64,000 nucleotides of DNA from Halopiger xanaduensis SH-6 (GTDB lineage Archaea; Halobacteriota; Halobacteria; Halobacteriales; Natrialbaceae), in assembly GCF_000217715.1 (NCBI RefSeq), contig NC_015666.1, positions 186,001-250,000 of the forward strand, given 5' to 3'. The notes under the pieces are model-generated. The model saw nothing but the letters and a program-made list of their open reading frames with translations. It did not search any database and was not told where the DNA came from. Shown here piece after piece: positions 51,199-61,770 of this stretch; position 1 is the stretch's first letter; each line of letters opens with the position of its first letter. Position numbers and translations under genes: made by a program.

Positions 51199-52146
51199 TC
51201 AGGCCGTCGACGGCGTCATGTCGATGTTCAACGACTTGCGAAGCAGCTGGGTAAAGCCCATCGAGCAGAGGAAGTACCAGACGATCCACGACCACATCGG
51301 ACCGAGCAGCGACTCGTTGAACGACACCTCGCCGGCGATCGGCATGATCATCGTCATCTCGGCTTCGCTAACGTGGCCGTCGAGAATCTTCCAGTACATC
51401 CAGAGGAACAGCGGGATCGTCAGCAGCATGATCCAGACCATCGGCCGGAACTGCTCTTTGAACATCCCGAGGTTGTCCGACATCGCCTCCATCTGCTCCT
51501 CGCGGACCGACTCGAGTTCGTTCTCGAGGCGTTCGATCTCGGCGTCGCTGGCCCCGCGCTCTTCGGCCTCCTGCTTGCGGTCCTGAACGTCCTGCATCTT
51601 CTCCTGCATGGCCTTCATCCGCTTTTGGTACTTGGCCATCACTTCGGGGTTCATCAGGTTGGCCTGCAGCAGCGTGGAGTAAAGGCCGGTCAGCAGCGCG
51701 ACGGACATGATCACGGCGTAGAACGGCAACGCGGCGTCCAGCGGCGCGAGGACGAGGTCGATCGTACTGCCGACCGTGTTCCGAACGGGGTTGAACCAGT
51801 ACCCGAACATCAACAGCAGCGACGCGACGCCGGCCATTTTGTCCCACTGTGACCACTTGGACTGTTCGGCGTCGACATCGACGTCGGCGCCCGGCTCGGT
51901 TCCGTCACCGTCGAGGGCCTCGTCGTAGGCGTCTCGGTCGGCGATCTCGAATCCCTCGTCGCCGTCGACTAACACTCCTTTCTCGATCAGTCGGCCCCAC
52001 TGTCCGCTCGTCAACTCGTCGCTGACGTCGGCCCAGTGGACCTCGCCCCCGTTCTCGTCGGCCCGCTCGCGGATCGCCTCGAGGGCGTCCTCCATCGAGG
52101 CGTCCTCGCGGACGAGGTCGTTGATTTTTTCGGCGGTGCGCGTCAT
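51199..52146 (-). CDS. DUF106 (archaeal YidC/EMC3-like) membrane protein
   Basis: This 315-residue protein belongs to DUF106, archaeal relatives of YidC/Oxa1 and eukaryotic EMC3/TMCO1 that help insert membrane proteins. It has a soluble N-terminal part of about 100 residues resembling a small helical or winged-helix domain (INDLVREDASMEDALEAIRERADENGGEVHWADVSDEL). The first helix is KMAGVASLLLMFGYWF, and a long cytoplasmic coiled coil (AKYQKRMKAMQEKMQDVQDRKQEAEERGAS) joins it to two C-terminal helices. It is usually found with adk, cmk and cbf5 in archaea; here adk is separated by two inserted genes. TTGTATACC (52168-52176) is a TATA box about 27 nt upstream. Confidence 0.9.
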   Translation of the reverse strand: MTRTAEKINDLVREDASMEDALEAIRERADENGGEVHWADVSDELTSGQWGRLIEKGVLVDGDEGFEIADRDAYDEALDGDGTEPGADVDVDAEQSKWSQWDKMAGVASLLLMFGYWFNPVRNTVGSTIDLVLAPLDAALPFYAVIMSVALLTGLYSTLLQANLMNPEVMAKYQKRMKAMQEKMQDVQDRKQEAEERGASDAEIERLENELESVREEQMEAMSDNLGMFKEQFRPMVWIMLLTIPLFLWMYWKILDGHVSEAEMTMIMPIAGEVSFNESLLGPMWSWIVWYFLCSMGFTQLLRKSLNIDMTPSTA

Positions 52147-52342: not shown

Positions 52343-54790
52343 ATGAATAATTTCGGGAAGGGGCTATCGGACGACGAGCGAACGGATCGAGGGGTAAGTC
52401 CGCAAGTGGGAATCGTACTCCTATTCGGAATGGTCATCATCGGTGCGAGCCTCATCTTCGCCGTCGGATCGATTGCGCTGGGATCGGTTGAAACGCAGGC
52501 GATGGCGGAGCAGGGCGAACAAATGATGCTGCAGGTCGACAACGGCATCGAAACGGCGACCGGAGATAACGTCAGTAGTGGATCGGTCTATCTGGAAGAC
52601 GACGGCGAATACGAACTTACGAACGACAGTCAGATAACGATCACCGCCGTGAACAATTACGCGAGCGACCGCACGACAATACCGCTGGGATCGCTCCAAT
52701 ACGAGGACGAAAGCGGCAACACGTTCGCTCATCAAGCGGGCGGCGTCTGGCGAGGGGAGGGATCGGAGGCACGTCTCGTTTCGAGACCGAATTTGCGATA
52801 CTACGAAGCGGCGAATGGAACCGAAGGTCGAGTCGAACTCGATATCACGAATCTCGGCGGCGAGTTAGACGACGGTGAAAACCGCGTCACCAGTCGACCG
52901 GTCTCAGGAGAGGGAGATCTAAGTCGCGATATCGGCTTTGTGAACTACATAAACGTAACCGTCTCCGGATCCGCGTACCACCACGGATGGGCGACGTTCC
53001 TCGAGGACGAATTCGACGCTGCGAGCCGGAGCGATTGCGATGTCGCTGGTAGTCCCAGTGAGACGATTATCTGTCACGATGAAAGTACTGAAACCGTGAC
53101 GGTTATCGCTCCGATCGAGGGGGAGAACCCGTTTGCGAGTCACGTCGGTATTGATCCAACGATATACGGCGGCCTCTACGCGGACGATGATCTGACGATC
53201 GATGAATCGGTAACGGTCGACAGATACAACGGGACCGTCGGCTGGGTTAGCGGGAACGTCACGGAGGATCTCCTCGTCGCCAATGGCGAGCTCGAACTGG
53301 CATCAGACGCGAACATCACCGGGGTACCTGTGGTAGACGGTCACTTTAGCGGCAAAGATGGTGCTGAAACGTCTAACATTGCGTTCGCAACTGATCCTGC
53401 CGGAACGAGGATCGACGAGATAAACGGCACTGAAGTATACAACGTGACCGATTCGACGCCTCCGGAACTCTTCGGCGCGAAACTGTCGGAGTCGTTCGAC
53501 GGGATCGATGACATTGATCAACAAACGGAGCGGGCGATCAGGTTGATCGACGAGTACGAAGATTCGAATCCGATTGCTTCGGAAAAGCTCGAGAGCGAGT
53601 CGGACAAGAACGTGGACGGATTCTATTACGAAGATAGCGACATCGACGGTGACGACATCGACGAGTTCGATACGAGTAACGGAGATATCCACGTTGCCGT
53701 CGATGGTAATGTCGAACTCGACGGTGTCGATGTGACGGGCGACGGTCGCGCGTACCTCTACGTTTCCGGTGATATCGATACGGACGGTGTTACGGTCGAC
53801 GGCGACCAGGCGCAGAACTTCTGGATCTACGGATCGAGCGACGCCGATGTCACCGTTCGAAACGTGTTCCAGGGCGTGATGTACACGCCGGAGAGCAACT
53901 CGCTCACGGTCGCGAAAGACACGGCGGTCTACGGTTCGATTGTTGCCGGTGAAGGGATCGACATCGGCGAGAACGTGAGTATCCACTTCGACGAGACGCT
54001 CCGGACGGACGTACCGATTCCCGAAGAAAACAGGGACGTTACGATCGAAATCGGCGAACGGCGCTCGCCCCTGGACGTGACCTTTGTTCTCGACCGATCC
54101 GGCTCGATGAGGGATAACGATCCGAGCGAACAGCGCGTCGACGCGACGAAGAACTTCATCGGCCTCATGCAGGGCGAAGATAGCAGCGTACTGGAAGGCG
54201 ATCAGAGCGATCAAGCCGGCGTGTACGAATTCAACCAGAACGGGTACGAGAGACACCACCTCAGTAGCGACCTGTCGTCGGTCAACAGTAGCGTTGAGAC
54301 GAGCGCGAGTGGCGGTACGGGGATCTACTCGGGGATTGAAATCGCGCTCGACGAATACGAGCGAAACCGCAGCTCGAGCGCCGAACAGCACATGATATTA
54401 TTAAGCGACGGACAAAACGATCCCGCGACCGAATGGGTCTGTACGGACGGAGGATGGCTTGGATGTGACAACTGGGAATTCTACGACTACAATCAACAGA
54501 CGTTAGATCAGGCCGAACGCGCCGCGGACATGAACGTCACGATTCACACGATAGGGCTCAGTGACGACGCGGACAGCGACATGTTGGGAGACATCGCAAA
54601 CGAAACTGACGGGGACTACTACCCGGCCGAGGACGACGACGAACTTGAGGAGATCTTCGAGGGAATCGCGGACAAAGTGACGGCATCGTCCCCGACGACG
54701 TTCGAAGTTGCGTCCGTCGACGAGCCGACAGCTTCTCCGCACGATTACGCCGTCAACGTCAGGGAACACCCGGTGAATATTGGCGGGTAA
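52343..54790 (+). CDS. Pilin-like exported protein with VWA domain
   Basis: This 815-residue protein starts with a type IV pilin-like segment (residues about 16-48: RGVSPQVGIVLLFGMVIIGASLIFAVG). It should be processed by prepilin peptidase or act as a membrane anchor. A beta-rich region follows (QYEDESGNTFAHQAGGVWRGEG). A repetitive beta-helix-like region (about 260-560: DGVDVTGDGRAYLYVSGDIDTDGVTVDG, GVMYTPESNSLTVAKDTAVYGSIVAG) precedes a von Willebrand A domain (about 580-780). The VWA has an intact MIDAS: D584-x-S-x-S, T659 and D689. It likely makes metal-dependent contacts outside the cell. The C-terminal YAVNVREHPVNI matches the end of the neighbour at 55070. AT-richer codons suggest transfer. 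Confidence 0.8.
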   Translation: MNNFGKGLSDDERTDRGVSPQVGIVLLFGMVIIGASLIFAVGSIALGSVETQAMAEQGEQMMLQVDNGIETATGDNVSSGSVYLEDDGEYELTNDSQITITAVNNYASDRTTIPLGSLQYEDESGNTFAHQAGGVWRGEGSEARLVSRPNLRYYEAANGTEGRVELDITNLGGELDDGENRVTSRPVSGEGDLSRDIGFVNYINVTVSGSAYHHGWATFLEDEFDAASRSDCDVAGSPSETIICHDESTETVTVIAPIEGENPFASHVGIDPTIYGGLYADDDLTIDESVTVDRYNGTVGWVSGNVTEDLLVANGELELASDANITGVPVVDGHFSGKDGAETSNIAFATDPAGTRIDEINGTEVYNVTDSTPPELFGAKLSESFDGIDDIDQQTERAIRLIDEYEDSNPIASEKLESESDKNVDGFYYEDSDIDGDDIDEFDTSNGDIHVAVDGNVELDGVDVTGDGRAYLYVSGDIDTDGVTVDGDQAQNFWIYGSSDADVTVRNVFQGVMYTPESNSLTVAKDTAVYGSIVAGEGIDIGENVSIHFDETLRTDVPIPEENRDVTIEIGERRSPLDVTFVLDRSGSMRDNDPSEQRVDATKNFIGLMQGEDSSVLEGDQSDQAGVYEFNQNGYERHHLSSDLSSVNSSVETSASGGTGIYSGIEIALDEYERNRSSSAEQHMILLSDGQNDPATEWVCTDGGWLGCDNWEFYDYNQQTLDQAERAADMNVTIHTIGLSDDADSDMLGDIANETDGDYYPAEDDDELEEIFEGIADKVTASSPTTFEVASVDEPTASPHDYAVNVREHPVNIGG

Positions 54791-55069: not shown

Positions 55070-56590
55070 ATGAGTTGGCGTCGCGAGGAGAAATCCGATG
55101 CACCAGGTCGCGCCGAATCCACGCTACTTGGACTGATATTACTGATCGGAATGGTCGCGGTCGTCGGCAGCAGTATGGTTCTCGTCGCCGACGACAGTCT
55201 CACGAGCGTGCAACGACAAGCCGAACACGAGCGGATCGAAAGCGGATTCGTCGAACTGAGCCAACAGATGGCGACCGCGTCGTCTGCCGGCGACAACTCG
55301 AGAGCGCTAAATCTCGAGACGGATCAGGACGGGGCGGTCGTGATGACCGATACTGGCCACATCAACATTACGGGCGGTGACGTCAATAAGAGCGTCCCGA
55401 TCGGGGCGATCGAGTACCAAGACGATGACGGGACGACGATCGCCTACCAGGCGGGTAGCGTCTTCAGAGAAACCGGAAACCAGACGCGCATCGTCTCCGC
55501 GCCACCGATCGAGTACGACGTCGAATCCGAGACCTTGTCGTTCCCGATTACGGAGGTCCGCGACGAAACGCGGCTCGGGTCCGGGGACGTCGTCGTGGAT
55601 CACTACGAAACCGATCCGCTCGGCGGCAGCAGCCTCGTCGAAAACGATACGGTGACGATCGAAGTGACGAGTAAGTACTACCGCGGCTGGGAGCGCTTCT
55701 TCGAAGAGCAGGGCGGTGCGACGACCGTCAGAGACGTCGAAGTGCACGACGACCGGACGGGGACGGTGACCGCGGAGTTCGGCTATCAAGAGGTCTCGGA
55801 CGCGTTCAAAACCGGTGCGATCTACGCGACGGACCTCGAGGTGCAGGGCGGGGCGGAAATCGACGACAGCCTCACACAGAAGGTCGCGTATCCGCCGCTC
55901 ACCGACGAAGTAAATCGGCTGGTCAACGCGACGCGCGCACCGAAGGACACCTTCGAAGGAACCGATATTACGCGCCTCGACACGGTCGACGAACATAACG
56001 ATAGCCTCGAGGACGGTATCTACGTCACAGACGGGATCGAAGAGAGTGGCCACCTCGAGTTCGATCTCTCCGATGGCAACGCGACGCTCGTCGTCGACGG
56101 CGACATTAACGCGAACGACGAAACGATCACGGTCAGCGACCACGAGAACGACCACGAACTGAGCGTGTACCTTACCGGCGACTACGACGCTAAAAACGGC
56201 GGCAACACCTGCGTTACGGAGGCGGGCTGTTACACGAACGAAGACGCGACGGTGATCCAGTTGGTCGCGTCCGACGAGTCCGAGATCGACTTCGGTCCCG
56301 GCGGGAAGTCTCGCTTCGAAGGCGTCATCTACGCCGGCGGGACGAACGAGGACTGGACGGAACGAAACGGGTGTGATAAGCAGGTGTGCATCCACTCGAA
56401 TCCCAACTTCTTCGGCTCGATAATCGCCTCGTCGGTCGAAATACAGGGTGGAAAGGGGAGTATCGACTTCGAGTACGATACCCAACTCCAGGACGAGGGC
56501 GTCGGAATCTATCCGGATCCGAGCCTGCTGCCGCCTCAGCTGACGTATCTCAACATCGCCGAACACACGGTCGACGTCCGCGAGAAGTAG
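55070..56590 (+). CDS. Pilin-like exported protein, VWA-less relative
   Basis: This 506-residue protein has a pilin-like N-terminus (GRAESTLLGLILLIGMVAVVGSSMVLV, residues about 13-40). Its extracellular part resembles the preceding protein: AIEYQDDDGTTIAYQAGSVFRETGNQTRIVS against the neighbour's QYEDESGNTFAHQAGGVW, and SKYYRGWERFFEEQGG against YHHGWATFLEDEF. Then come the same type of repetitive beta region (DGNATLVVDGDINANDETITV) and the terminal LTYLNIAEHTVDVREK. It lacks VWA. Two Cys pairs in the beta region (TCVTEAGC, CDKQVC) could form disulfides. Together the two proteins probably build or decorate a surface structure. There is no ATPase or prepilin peptidase gene nearby. Confidence 0.75.
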   Translation: MSWRREEKSDAPGRAESTLLGLILLIGMVAVVGSSMVLVADDSLTSVQRQAEHERIESGFVELSQQMATASSAGDNSRALNLETDQDGAVVMTDTGHINITGGDVNKSVPIGAIEYQDDDGTTIAYQAGSVFRETGNQTRIVSAPPIEYDVESETLSFPITEVRDETRLGSGDVVVDHYETDPLGGSSLVENDTVTIEVTSKYYRGWERFFEEQGGATTVRDVEVHDDRTGTVTAEFGYQEVSDAFKTGAIYATDLEVQGGAEIDDSLTQKVAYPPLTDEVNRLVNATRAPKDTFEGTDITRLDTVDEHNDSLEDGIYVTDGIEESGHLEFDLSDGNATLVVDGDINANDETITVSDHENDHELSVYLTGDYDAKNGGNTCVTEAGCYTNEDATVIQLVASDESEIDFGPGGKSRFEGVIYAGGTNEDWTERNGCDKQVCIHSNPNFFGSIIASSVEIQGGKGSIDFEYDTQLQDEGVGIYPDPSLLPPQLTYLNIAEHTVDVREK

Positions 56591-56600
56591 AGTAACGGTT

Positions 56601-57236
56601 CTACGCTGCGTCTTCGATCGTCGCCTTCACGTCCTCCCAGACTTCGTCGGGGCTCTGCTCGCCGTCGACGCGCTCGAGCACCCCTTCCTCCTCGTAGTGC
56701 TCGATGACGGGTTCGGTGTTCTCCTGATAGACGCGCAGTCGTTCCTTGACCGTCTCCTCGGTGTCGTCCTCGCGCTGGACGAGTCGGTCTTCGACCTCGG
56801 GATCCTCCGGCGGGTTGTACTCAACGTGGTAGATCTCGTCCGTCTCGGGGTCGAGTCGGCGGCCGGTCAGTCGGTGGACGAGTTCCTCCTCGCCGACGTC
56901 GAGGTAAAGGACGAGGTCGAGATCGGTCATGCCCTCGAGTTCCTCGGCTTGCTCCATGTTTCGCGGGTAGCCGTCCAGCACGAAACCGTCGGCCTGCGAG
57001 AGCGCCTCGTCGACGATGGCGTTGACGACCTCGTCGGGGACGAGTTCGCCCTGGTCCATGTACTCGCCGGGCGTGTCGTACTCCGTGTCCATGTCGGAGA
57101 TGTCCATCTCCTTGTTCGACCGGAGCGCGTCGCCGGTGGTGATGTGATCGATGCCGAACTCCTCGGTGATCTTCGCACACTGGGTCCCCTTTCCTGCCCC
57201 GGGGGCACCCATAATCACGAGTTGTGGCTGTGCCAT
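56601..57236 (-). CDS. adk: Adenylate kinase
   Basis: This 211-residue enzyme interconverts ATP, ADP and AMP. It has the P-loop [48 protein letters not shown], and a lid [49 protein letters not shown] without zinc cysteines. Length is that of the long-lid form. In many archaea adk is followed directly by DUF106, cmk and cbf5. Here the next gene on its strand (DUF106) begins 4.4 kb away, with two opposite-strand genes in between. Confidence 0.96.
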
Positions 57237-58165: not shown

Positions 58166-59290
58166 GTGAACACAATCTTCAGCGCAATACTCCCCCCGAT
58201 GCAGCTCATTCCGGAGCAGGGAACGCGCGTCGACGTGTTCGAGGGGATCTTTCTGGTCTTCCTCGGACTCGGGACGCTCGTCGGCATCGTCGTGGTCTCG
58301 TACATCTTGTACAACGCGTACAAGTACCGCGACACCGGCGAGGTCGGCGACGACGAGGACCTGCCGAGCGTCGGGGAACTACCGACAGGTGGAAAGGGCG
58401 GCAAGAAACTATTCCTCTCGTTCGGCCTGAGTGCCATCATCGTCATCTCGCTGGTCGTCTGGACCTACGGGATGTTGCTGTACGTCGAGGACGGGCCGGA
58501 ACAACCGGAGGACGCGATCGAGATCGAAGTCGAAGGCTACGCGTTCGGCTGGGACTTCTACTACGATAACGGCGTCGAGACGAGCGGCTACGGTGAAGGA
58601 CTCGTCGTCCCGGCCGATCAGGCGGTCTGGATCGAAACGACGTCACGCGACGTCTGGCACACGTTCGGCATCCCCGACTTACGGGTGAAGGCCGACGCCA
58701 TCCCCGGCGAGTACGACCAGACGTGGTTCAAGGCTGACGAGCCCGGCAACCACACTGCCAAGTGTTTCGAACTGTGTGGGCCACAGCACTCCGATATGCT
58801 CTCCGACGTGACCGTCCTCGAGCAATCGGCCTACGAGGAGTGGATGAACGAGCAGTTGACGGCGACCATCACGCTCGAGGACGGCAACGAGTCGCCGGTC
58901 ACCGAGGGCTTCGAGGTCACGCTCGAGCACCAGAACAACAGCGACTACGATCAGGACCTCAGCCACACGTTTACCCCCGACTCCGAGGAGTTCGATAACG
59001 GCACGATCACCGTTACCCTCGAACGGGGCGGTCCGTACGATCTGACGATCTCGCCGACCGATGGCCAGTTCGAGGAAGTCGAGGAGACCCTCGAGGTCAC
59101 CGGCCCGACCGACGAGACGTACACGCTCGAGGACCCGAACGCGAGCGAGGACGACGGTAGCGACGGTGGCGACGACGGCGGCAACGGGTCGGCCGACGAC
59201 GGTGACGGCGGATCGGGTAGCGACACCGACAACGCAACCGATGACGAGACAGGCAACAACGAAACGAGCGACGGAGGTGACGGCGAATGA
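58166..59290 (+). CDS. coxB: Cytochrome c oxidase subunit II with extra domain
   Basis: This protein of about 374 residues is subunit II of a haem-copper oxidase. Two helices (IFLVFLGLGTLVGIVVVSYILY and LFLSFGLSAIIVISLVVWTYGMLL) precede a cupredoxin domain with an intact CuA site: His in DVWHTFGIP and the Cys-Glu-x-Cys-His-Met set in AKCFELCGPQHSDM. After it comes an unusual second beta domain (TATITLEDGNESPVTEGFEVTLE ... LTISPTDGQFEEVEETLEVTG) and an acidic Gly/Asp tail of about 45 residues, all outside the cell. The start may be GTG 58166 or ATG 58199. It overlaps coxAC by ATGA. Confidence 0.9.
   Translation: MNTIFSAILPPMQLIPEQGTRVDVFEGIFLVFLGLGTLVGIVVVSYILYNAYKYRDTGEVGDDEDLPSVGELPTGGKGGKKLFLSFGLSAIIVISLVVWTYGMLLYVEDGPEQPEDAIEIEVEGYAFGWDFYYDNGVETSGYGEGLVVPADQAVWIETTSRDVWHTFGIPDLRVKADAIPGEYDQTWFKADEPGNHTAKCFELCGPQHSDMLSDVTVLEQSAYEEWMNEQLTATITLEDGNESPVTEGFEVTLEHQNNSDYDQDLSHTFTPDSEEFDNGTITVTLERGGPYDLTISPTDGQFEEVEETLEVTGPTDETYTLEDPNASEDDGSDGGDDGGNGSADDGDGGSGSDTDNATDDETGNNETSDGGDGE
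59273..59280 (+). promoter_or_regulatory. Ribosome binding site of coxAC
   Basis: GGAGGTGA lies six bases before the ATG at 59287. It is within the end of coxB. Confidence 0.7.
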
Positions 59291-61770
59291 GTGAGCTCCC
59301 ACCGAAAACCACGATCAAACGGTGGCTGGTCACGACGAACCACAAGGACGTCGGGATGATGTACATCGCGACGTCCCTGTTCTTCCTGCTGTTCGGCGGA
59401 GTCATGGCGCTGCTGTTCCGCACCCATCTCTGGGCGCCCGGCGGAATCGGGCTGCTCGACGGGATGCAGTTCAACCAGGCCGTGACGACCCACGGCTTCC
59501 TGATGGTGTTCTGGTTCCTCTCGCCGTTCGCGACCGGGTTCGCGAACTACTTCGTCCCGCTGCAGATCGGGGCGAAGGATCTGGCGTTCCCGCGGCTGAA
59601 CGCGATGAGTTACTGGTTCTACCTGTTCTCGGGGGTGCTCCTGAGCATGTCGTACTTCCTGGGCCAGGCGTTCGCCGGCGGGTGGACCCTGTACGCGCCG
59701 CTGAACGTGCCGACGTACACGACGGCGATGGAGGCTGCAACCGGCGGTAACGCGACCATCCTCGCGCTGGTGCTGTTCACGATTTCGATCACGATGGGTA
59801 CCGTCAACTTCCTCGTGACGATCCACCGTTCGCGCGCGGAGGGACTCGGCCTCTGGAACATGCCGATGTTCACCTGGTCGTGGCTGCTGACCGTCTGGAT
59901 GATGCTGTTCGCCTTCGCGGCGCTGCTGGCCGCACTCCTGCTGCTGGCCGTCGACCGAACCTTCCTGACGCAGTACTTTGCGACCAACGAGGGCTCGAGC
60001 CTGCTGTGGGCGCACCTGTTCTGGTTCTTCGGCCATCCGGAGGTGTACATCGTCTTCTTCCCCGCGCTGGGGATCATGTTCGAGGTCTTCCAGACGTTCA
60101 CGGGTCGGCGACTCGTCGGTCGTAAGTGGGTCATCATCGCGATGGTTCTGGTGGCGGTCCAGTCGTTCCTCGTCTGGATGCACCACATGTTCCTGTCGAC
60201 CATCAACCTCGAGATCAAGACCCTGATGATGGCGACGACCATCGGGATCTCGCTGCCGTTCGACCTGATGGTCTTCTCGCTGATCTACACGATGGTCAAG
60301 GGACGGGTCCGGTTCACGACCCCGTTCCTGTTTGCAATGGGCGCGCTCGTCCTGTTCATCCTCGGCGGGATCACCGGGGTCTTCCTCGGGGCGGTCGTGC
60401 TCGACTACGAGTTCCGCGGCACCTACTGGGTCGTCGCGCACTTCCACTACGTGATGGTCTCGGGCGTCACGGCGCTGGTCGGCGGGCTCTACTATTGGTG
60501 GCCCAAGATCACCGGGAAGATGTACTCCGAGGCGCTCGGGAAGCTCAACTTCGCGGTGTACTTCATCGGCTTCAACCTGCTGTACTTCCCGCTGTTCCTC
60601 GCCTGGGAGACGCCCCGCCGCGTCTTCGAGTATCCCGAAGGGTACCAGCTCTACCACCAGGTCGCGACGGTCGGCGCGTTCATCCTCGGCGCCTCCTTCC
60701 TGATCATGTTCTACACGCTCGGGAAGAGTTGGCTTTCGGGGCCGGACGCACCCGACAACCCCTGGAAGTACTCCCGCACGGCCGAGTGGGCGATTCCCTC
60801 CCCCCCGCCGGCGGAGAACTGGCCCGGCCGTCCGAGCTACGCCAGCGGGAGCCTCGAGTTCCTCGAGGATTCGGCCGCGGCGACCGACGGCGGCGTCGCT
60901 CACGAACAGAGCGCTGCCGGCCATGCGGCGGCCGGCCACGAAGAAGAGCACGTCGACCACGCCAGCATCTGGCCGTTCGGCATCGGGCTGGGGACGTTCA
61001 CGTTCTTCCTCGGCCTCTCCGGTCTCACGCCGTACGTCGTCCAGTTCGCGGAAGGGGTCGGCGAACACGCACCCGAGGGTCTTGCCGGAACGAGCGCCGA
61101 GCCGAACATCGTCTACCCAGCGGTGATGCTGCTGGGCGTGGCGATCATGGGCTACTCGCTGTTCAAGCTCGGCGTCGAGGACTTCAACCCGCCCACGATG
61201 GCCATCGCCGAACGCTGGCCGTTCGGCGGGGTCGACAACATGAAGATGGGGGTCTGGGTGTTCCTCGCGTCCGACGTCGTCGTCTTCGGCGGCGCGATCG
61301 GCGCGTTCATCTTCATGCGCCTGCACATGGGCTGGGGCAACTGGCACCTCGACTCGATCACCACGGCTGGGCTGGTCAACACCTACGTGCTGTTGACCTC
61401 GAGTTTCACCGTCATCCTGGCGCTGGCGTACGCCGAGCGCCGCGACAAGACGAAGATGCTCGGCTCGATGGTCGCAACGGTGCTGCTGGCGCTGGTGTTC
61501 ATGGGCGTCAAGGCCTACGAGTACGGCGCGAAGTTCGCTGACGGCCACTACTGGTGGTACAGCATCGAGTATTCGATCTACTTCGTGACCACCGGGCTGC
61601 ACGCACTCCACGTGATCCTCGGCGTCATCATCGCGCTGTTCATGATCTACCGGATCCTCAGCGTCGACGCCTACCTCGAGGATCACCGGCCGGTCGAGCA
61701 CTTCGGGCTCTACTGGCACTTCGTGGACATCGTGTGGGTGTTCCTGTTCCCGCTGTTCTACCTCTTCTAA
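59287..61770 (+). CDS. coxA: Fused cytochrome c oxidase subunits I and III
   Basis: This 827-residue membrane protein joins subunit I (about 1-540) to subunit III (about 610-827). The subunit I metal ligands are complete: His in VTTHGFLMVFW (haem a), HPEVY with the His-Tyr cross-link, WMHHMF (CuB) and VAHFHYVM (haem a3/a). The D-channel Asp is in IGAKDLAFPRLNAMSYW. The usual K-channel lysine near GIKVF of A-type oxidases is not seen (LPFDLMVFSLIY). Subunit III begins near FPPTM-like FNPPTMAIAERWPFGGVDNMKMGVWVFLASDVVVFGG. It reduces oxygen as the terminal oxidase and probably pumps protons. A hairpin terminator follows. Confidence 0.93.
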   Translation: MSELPPKTTIKRWLVTTNHKDVGMMYIATSLFFLLFGGVMALLFRTHLWAPGGIGLLDGMQFNQAVTTHGFLMVFWFLSPFATGFANYFVPLQIGAKDLAFPRLNAMSYWFYLFSGVLLSMSYFLGQAFAGGWTLYAPLNVPTYTTAMEAATGGNATILALVLFTISITMGTVNFLVTIHRSRAEGLGLWNMPMFTWSWLLTVWMMLFAFAALLAALLLLAVDRTFLTQYFATNEGSSLLWAHLFWFFGHPEVYIVFFPALGIMFEVFQTFTGRRLVGRKWVIIAMVLVAVQSFLVWMHHMFLSTINLEIKTLMMATTIGISLPFDLMVFSLIYTMVKGRVRFTTPFLFAMGALVLFILGGITGVFLGAVVLDYEFRGTYWVVAHFHYVMVSGVTALVGGLYYWWPKITGKMYSEALGKLNFAVYFIGFNLLYFPLFLAWETPRRVFEYPEGYQLYHQVATVGAFILGASFLIMFYTLGKSWLSGPDAPDNPWKYSRTAEWAIPSPPPAENWPGRPSYASGSLEFLEDSAAATDGGVAHEQSAAGHAAAGHEEEHVDHASIWPFGIGLGTFTFFLGLSGLTPYVVQFAEGVGEHAPEGLAGTSAEPNIVYPAVMLLGVAIMGYSLFKLGVEDFNPPTMAIAERWPFGGVDNMKMGVWVFLASDVVVFGGAIGAFIFMRLHMGWGNWHLDSITTAGLVNTYVLLTSSFTVILALAYAERRDKTKMLGSMVATVLLALVFMGVKAYEYGAKFADGHYWWYSIEYSIYFVTTGLHALHVILGVIIALFMIYRILSVDAYLEDHRPVEHFGLYWHFVDIVWVFLFPLFYLF

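Follow-up and report, generated by a model that had tools for sequence, protein, structure and literature searches.

PilB of Streptococcus sanguinis is a demonstrated adhesin in which a pilin module bears a VWA with a complete metal-ion-dependent adhesion site (MIDAS); it has been modelled at the pilus tip and its MIDAS matters for function (PMC8179133). CpaL of Caulobacter crescentus couples a minor pilin-like module to a MIDAS-bearing VWA, and is likewise modelled at the pilus tip, where it is proposed to be a mechanosensory element (PMC12607857). ComZ of Thermus thermophilus (PDB 6qvi) is a pilin with a large ice-binding-protein-like beta-solenoid, also proposed at the tip, that binds DNA (PMC6561018). 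In archaea, the census by Makarova and co-workers classes arCOG02911 (250-550 aa, linked to type IV pili) as a minor pilin; these proteins are beta-rich, prone to duplication and, in the text consulted, described without solenoid or VWA modules (PMC4858521). Finally, the VARTIG hypervariable Ig proteins of Thermococcales are archaeal secreted proteins in which recombination between species drives the divergence of the terminal domain (PMC8416519).

Here we analyse an 815-aa haloarchaeal protein encoded at 52343-54790 (+) of the window, that is, of the whole 64,000-nucleotide stretch of DNA analysed. Pfam matches and an AlphaFold model divide it into a DUF7289 pilin-like module, a DUF7305 beta-solenoid, a VWA and a C-terminal strand. 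It resembles PilB and CpaL in joining a pilin-like module to a VWA, and ComZ in joining a pilin-like module to a predicted solenoid. PilB, however, is bacterial, with a small pilin module, a short loop to the VWA and no beta-solenoid; CpaL belongs to a bacterial Tad pilus, carries an insert in its VWA and has no solenoid described in the text consulted; and the bacterial ComZ has its solenoid inserted ahead of the final strand of the pilin, lacks a VWA and is DNA-binding. The arCOG02911 minor pilins are an archaeal parallel, whereas the VARTIG proteins, built of Ig repeats without pilin or VWA, consist of unrelated domains. The original prediction that no system of this make-up had been described is hence too broad, since pilin plus VWA and pilin plus beta-solenoid are both on record. 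The parts are known singly; to our knowledge, the novelty lies only in the three-part combination and in its occurrence in archaea, no description of an archaeal pilin/solenoid/VWA form having been retrieved by a search limited to open papers. The same search retrieved neither DUF7289 nor DUF7305 by name, which does not prove novelty.

Domain organization and structural model

The open reading frame at 52343-54790 was confirmed. Three Pfam domains score above cut-off: DUF7289 (residues 16-254, E 4e-15), DUF7305 (residues 399-555, E 3e-27) and VWA (residues 578-773, E 7e-16). An AlphaFold model obtained with 16 rows as input (mean pLDDT 75.9, pTM 0.51) lays the chain out as a helix at 21-73, a beta head up to about residue 257, a beta-solenoid at about 278-550, a VWA at 567-780 and a final strand at 804-814. 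Because residues 1-46 are of low confidence (<50) and because of the pTM value, the placement of the domains in this model is unreliable. The protein contains 14 N-glycosylation sequons, compared with 6.8 +/- 2.4 in shuffled sequences. As read from sequence and model, and with a weak pilin signal, the chain follows the plan of a modular pilin adhesin of the PilB kind, in which a pilin module and an extra functional module are carried by one polypeptide.

The N-terminus (52343-52561, +) combines a putative class III (prepilin-like) signal region at residues 1-17 with a long hydrophobic helix predicted at 21-73. The putative cleavage site lies between DRG and VSPQVGIVLLFG, and the preceding R16 is invariant in alignment A1. 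The Pilin_N match stays under the curated cut-off in this protein (E 0.026) and reaches 2e-4 in relatives. The motif suggests that prepilin peptidase cleaves after DRG. With the DUF7289 match and the predicted helix, these observations support the type IV pilin-like N-terminus of the original prediction.

The putative beta-solenoid stalk spans residues 258-555 (53114-54007, +), of which the last part is the Pfam DUF7305 match (PF23981); its strands are seen in the AlphaFold model and its fold class comes from the neighbouring gene. This gene (55070-56590, +) encodes a 506-aa VWA-less paralogue with DUF7289 (E 2e-22) and DUF7305 (E 3e-32). In its model (pLDDT 65), the fold of residues 241-477 resembles that of ice-binding proteins (Z 13.4, 6eio) and of ComZ (Z 9.2), so that the latter value measures a likeness of the neighbour and not of the 815-aa protein itself. 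The match to the bactofilin fold is weaker (Z 7.2). Foldseek returned no match to the neighbour's model at E<=0.001, and the best match in a profile search was an ice-binding protein, at E 0.2 only. Since DUF7305 is common to both proteins, we infer that the scaffold of the 815-aa protein is an ice-binding-protein/ComZ-like solenoid, a class carried over from the neighbour's model. The predicted beta-repeat scaffold was indeed present in both models. For its supposed resemblance to polymer-forming domains, the ice-binding-protein/ComZ-like reading is the better one. Bactofilin identity was rejected, as the profile match (E 0.032, 14.9 bits) falls short of the 27.9-bit cut-off.

DUF7289 belongs with type IV pili

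The DUF7289 minor-pilin module (PF23960) is encoded at 52388-53104 (+). The source genome has four DUF7289 matches, the best of which (G000:C3:1882988) closes a complete type IV pilus operon in the order PilB3-related ATPase (T2SSE), T2SSF, DUF7287, DUF7288, DUF7261-like (scoring just below cut-off), DUF7266 and DUF7289. All the small pilin-like genes of this operon (L057 6998-16217; G000:C3, about 1883-1892 kb) belong to uncharacterised families. The genome furthermore holds five T2SSE matches, three T2SSF genes (the reading frames of five T2SSF matches) and a single Peptidase_A24 (prepilin peptidase) gene.

We then considered nine genomes from six families (L218-L226), a non-random set picked for having a short DUF7289 gene adjoining a long one. 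In all nine, a VWA-less DUF7289-DUF7305 gene is convergent with the short DUF7289 gene and its pilin genes, and in eight the ATPase and T2SSF lie within the same stretch. This, together with the position of DUF7289 at the operon end in the source genome, leads us to consider DUF7289 a type IV minor-pilin family, and arCOG02911 is probably the same family. The linkage holds at the level of the family: the 52343-54790 gene itself is unlinked, with no type IV pilus machinery gene beside it.

A VWA domain with a complete MIDAS

The VWA occupies residues 576-780 (54068-54682, +; PF00092). Many VWA structures match its predicted fold with Z 22-24, among them Mfa5, a pilus-tip protein of P. gingivalis; in this search, run on the whole 815-aa model, VWA matches filled the list, which hence covers mainly the VWA part of the chain. 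MIDAS motif 1, DRSGSM, lies at residues 584-589 (54092-54109, +), followed by T659 (54317-54319, +) and D689 (54407-54409, +). D584, S586, S588, T659 and D689 are all present, and four of them are invariant over 29 rows, the exception being S586, which is kept as Ser in 28 rows and replaced by Thr in the remaining one. The DxSxS, Thr and Asp metal-ligand residues are therefore all found on a predicted VWA fold, which confirms that the MIDAS is complete, as had been proposed.

Divergence is concentrated on the MIDAS side

Directly after motif 1, between SGSM589 and D593, relatives of the protein carry a hypervariable insert of 0 to 102 residues, many of them of 70-100 aa, while the 815-aa protein has none. 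In CpaL a beta-rich VWA insert falls in the same interval, after MIDAS motif 1 and ahead of the MIDAS Thr. The insert of the relatives gave no confident match in Pfam. We compared 20 close pairs, defined by at least 80% identity over residues 60-560, of which 19 have an insert of at least 20 columns. The close pairs are 82-98% identical over residues 60-560, yet the insert is just 10-84% identical (for example in L025/L027, L015/L018 and L008/L028). The lowest-identity window of the whole protein falls in the insert in 19 out of 19 pairs, although these represent about five groups of related species and are hence not 19 independent tests. In the pair G061/G065 identity drops from 95-97% in the flanking DNA to 43% in the insert, the edges are sharp, and different codons are used at 17 of the 25 identical residues. 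Taken together, these features of the aligned sequences favour replacement of the insert over gradual drift. When six genomes were searched for silent copies that could have donated the insert, only the gene itself and weak matches at chance level came up.

Two pairs without the insert differ most in another place on the same side: both the 815-aa protein compared with its nearest relative (G055) and G016 compared with G014 diverge most around residues 700-717. In the first of these comparisons the variable loop after D689, residues 693-717 (54419-54493, +), has the lowest identity of the whole protein, with a sliding identity of 0.13 at residue 709. As the insert and the loop after D689 are the most divergent stretches, the MIDAS side of the relatives and of the 815-aa protein may constitute an exchangeable recognition surface. 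Tentatively, and with rather more doubt than belief, we propose that the MIDAS-side segment is swapped or rapidly replaced by recombination between species while pilin and solenoid are kept, which would serve a change of ligand, the distinction of self from non-self, or the evasion of viruses for which the pilus is the way in.

Proposed role and alternative readings

We consider it likely that the product of 52343-54790 is a modular type IV minor pilin, acting most probably as a pilus-tip adhesin. Prepilin peptidase would trim the N-terminus after ..DRG, and the alpha1 helix and the DUF7289 head would then enter (or cap) a type IV filament made by a PilB/PilC-type machine encoded in trans, elsewhere in the genome. 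The beta-solenoid would act as a stalk keeping the VWA away from the fibre, and the VWA would bind a ligand through a divalent metal in the MIDAS. The VWA-less neighbour would likewise be a minor pilin of this type, and both may lie together at the tip. In favour of this reading count the domains and the complete MIDAS, the VWA fold, the ComZ-like solenoid, the place of the DUF7289 family in type IV pilus operons, the PilB and CpaL precedents, the number of sequons and the peak of variation on the MIDAS side. Against it count the absence of pilus machinery genes next to the gene, the Pilin_N score below cut-off, the limited confidence of the AlphaFold model, and a solenoid match that was obtained with the neighbour's model. 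The adhesin or pilus-tip function of the original prediction is thus upheld as a reading, in which location at the tip, metal binding and ligand binding are what we infer.

Pilin-like helices can act as simple membrane anchors, and the gene lies apart from the type IV pilus operons. The protein could accordingly be a surface protein held by its helix outside any filament and involved in S-layer contact, aggregation or biofilm. We consider this unlikely, given that DUF7289 is a family of type IV pilus operons and that the VWA-less long form is linked to them in six families. A tip protein could also be a sensor, its VWA changing shape under tension and so regulating either the retraction of the pilus or signalling on surface contact, a role that has been proposed for CpaL and PilY1. 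The long stalk predicted by AlphaFold would suit such a role, as would the pilin-VWA plan common with CpaL (PMC12607857). On the other hand, the fast divergence of the MIDAS side points to changing ligands instead of a conserved sensor, and no signalling gene was found in the immediate neighbourhood, so that this reading too seems improbable to us.

The resemblance of the neighbour's solenoid to ice-binding proteins and to the DNA-binding ComZ (PMC6561018) raises the further idea of a receptor for DNA or polysaccharide on a competence-like pilus, with the VWA merely stabilising the tip. This would leave a complete and conserved MIDAS unexplained, and the protein is very acidic (D+E 20.6%, K+R 4.7%), although this is usual in haloarchaea. 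We give this reading very little credence.

A modular tip adhesin would suggest that archaea, like bacteria, make pili adhesive by grafting modules onto minor pilins, and would assign to two uncharacterised Pfam families, DUF7289 and DUF7305, a part in the type IV pilus of haloarchaea that can be put to the test. The domain combination is of moderate interest; the hypervariability of the MIDAS side is more surprising, and would make the choice of partners or surfaces by archaea directly testable across close species.

Origin of the VWA and genomic setting

DUF7305 is present in 189 of the 292 haloarchaeal genomes sampled, in 59 of 77 genera. Of 125 Natrialbaceae genomes, about a quarter, as counted by eye, encode close relatives of the 815-aa protein (E below 1e-98), the named ones being from Natrinema, Natrialba, Halovivax and Haloterrigena, and more distant VWA forms are found in one further family. 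A tree rooted with short DUF7289 pilins as outgroup divides the long forms into three groups, two VWA-less and one with VWA. In a tree of the region common to the long forms, 40 VWA proteins fall in one clade, along with two proteins without detectable VWA. The topology suggests that the VWA was probably gained once on a VWA-less scaffold, a single gain being the simplest reading. The opposite scenario, a VWA protein as ancestral core with the neighbour as its deletion product, was rejected because VWA-less forms are spread over many families and group in clades of their own, apart from that of the VWA proteins. The addition of the VWA to an older scaffold is supported by the same observations.

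The two exceptions in the VWA clade (L138 1403-4630, L133 811-4065) are proteins of about 1080 aa without a Pfam VWA, in which another C-terminal module may have replaced it. Other variants were encountered as well. In G052 the VWA gene is reduced to a 404-aa ORF (L043 6091-7305) without DUF7305 or VWA, which looks truncated or decayed, beside an intact VWA-less gene. A 1370-aa relative (L134 2335-6447) has a different C-terminal build, with DUF7289, VWA and CARDB repeats.

In most of the family, the VWA sits between DUF7305 and the final beta segment, which in the 815-aa protein is the strand predicted by AlphaFold at residues 804-814 (54752-54784, +). The position originally given for the VWA is therefore correct, although the likeness of this tail to that of VWA-less forms appears only modest at the sequence level. 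In a gapped test against VWA-less tails, 8 out of 27 VWA proteins have a tail that outscores over 98% of the other segments of the same protein, while 4.7% of the segments of the 815-aa protein score as high as its tail. With a profile of VWA-less tails, the median rank of the VWA tails lies within the top 1.7% of windows, and they come first in four of 40 only. The tail may close the pilin fold in the manner of ComZ, but the last strand of the short DUF7289 pilin fits, by eye, residues 251-257 as well. Regarding the proposal that the VWA was inserted into the scaffold, its addition to a pre-existing scaffold stands, and so modest a tail similarity does not separate insertion inside the scaffold from addition before the tail.

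Both pilin genes, on the + strand, are flanked by EMC3/TMCO1 and adk (51199-52146 and 56601-57236, both on the - strand). In several genera this pair encloses the VWA gene together with at least one VWA-less gene. At 12 of the 30 loci examined, including one Natrialbaceae genome, adk lies at most 160 bp from EMC3 on the same strand, for which reason the pilin genes seem to have been inserted into a gene pair of older standing. In many other haloarchaea a gap of about 100 bp separates EMC3/TMCO1 from adk. Further along the window, at 59287-61770, an 827-aa ORF resembles, on sequence alone, a fusion of cytochrome oxidase subunit I with a portion similar to subunit III.
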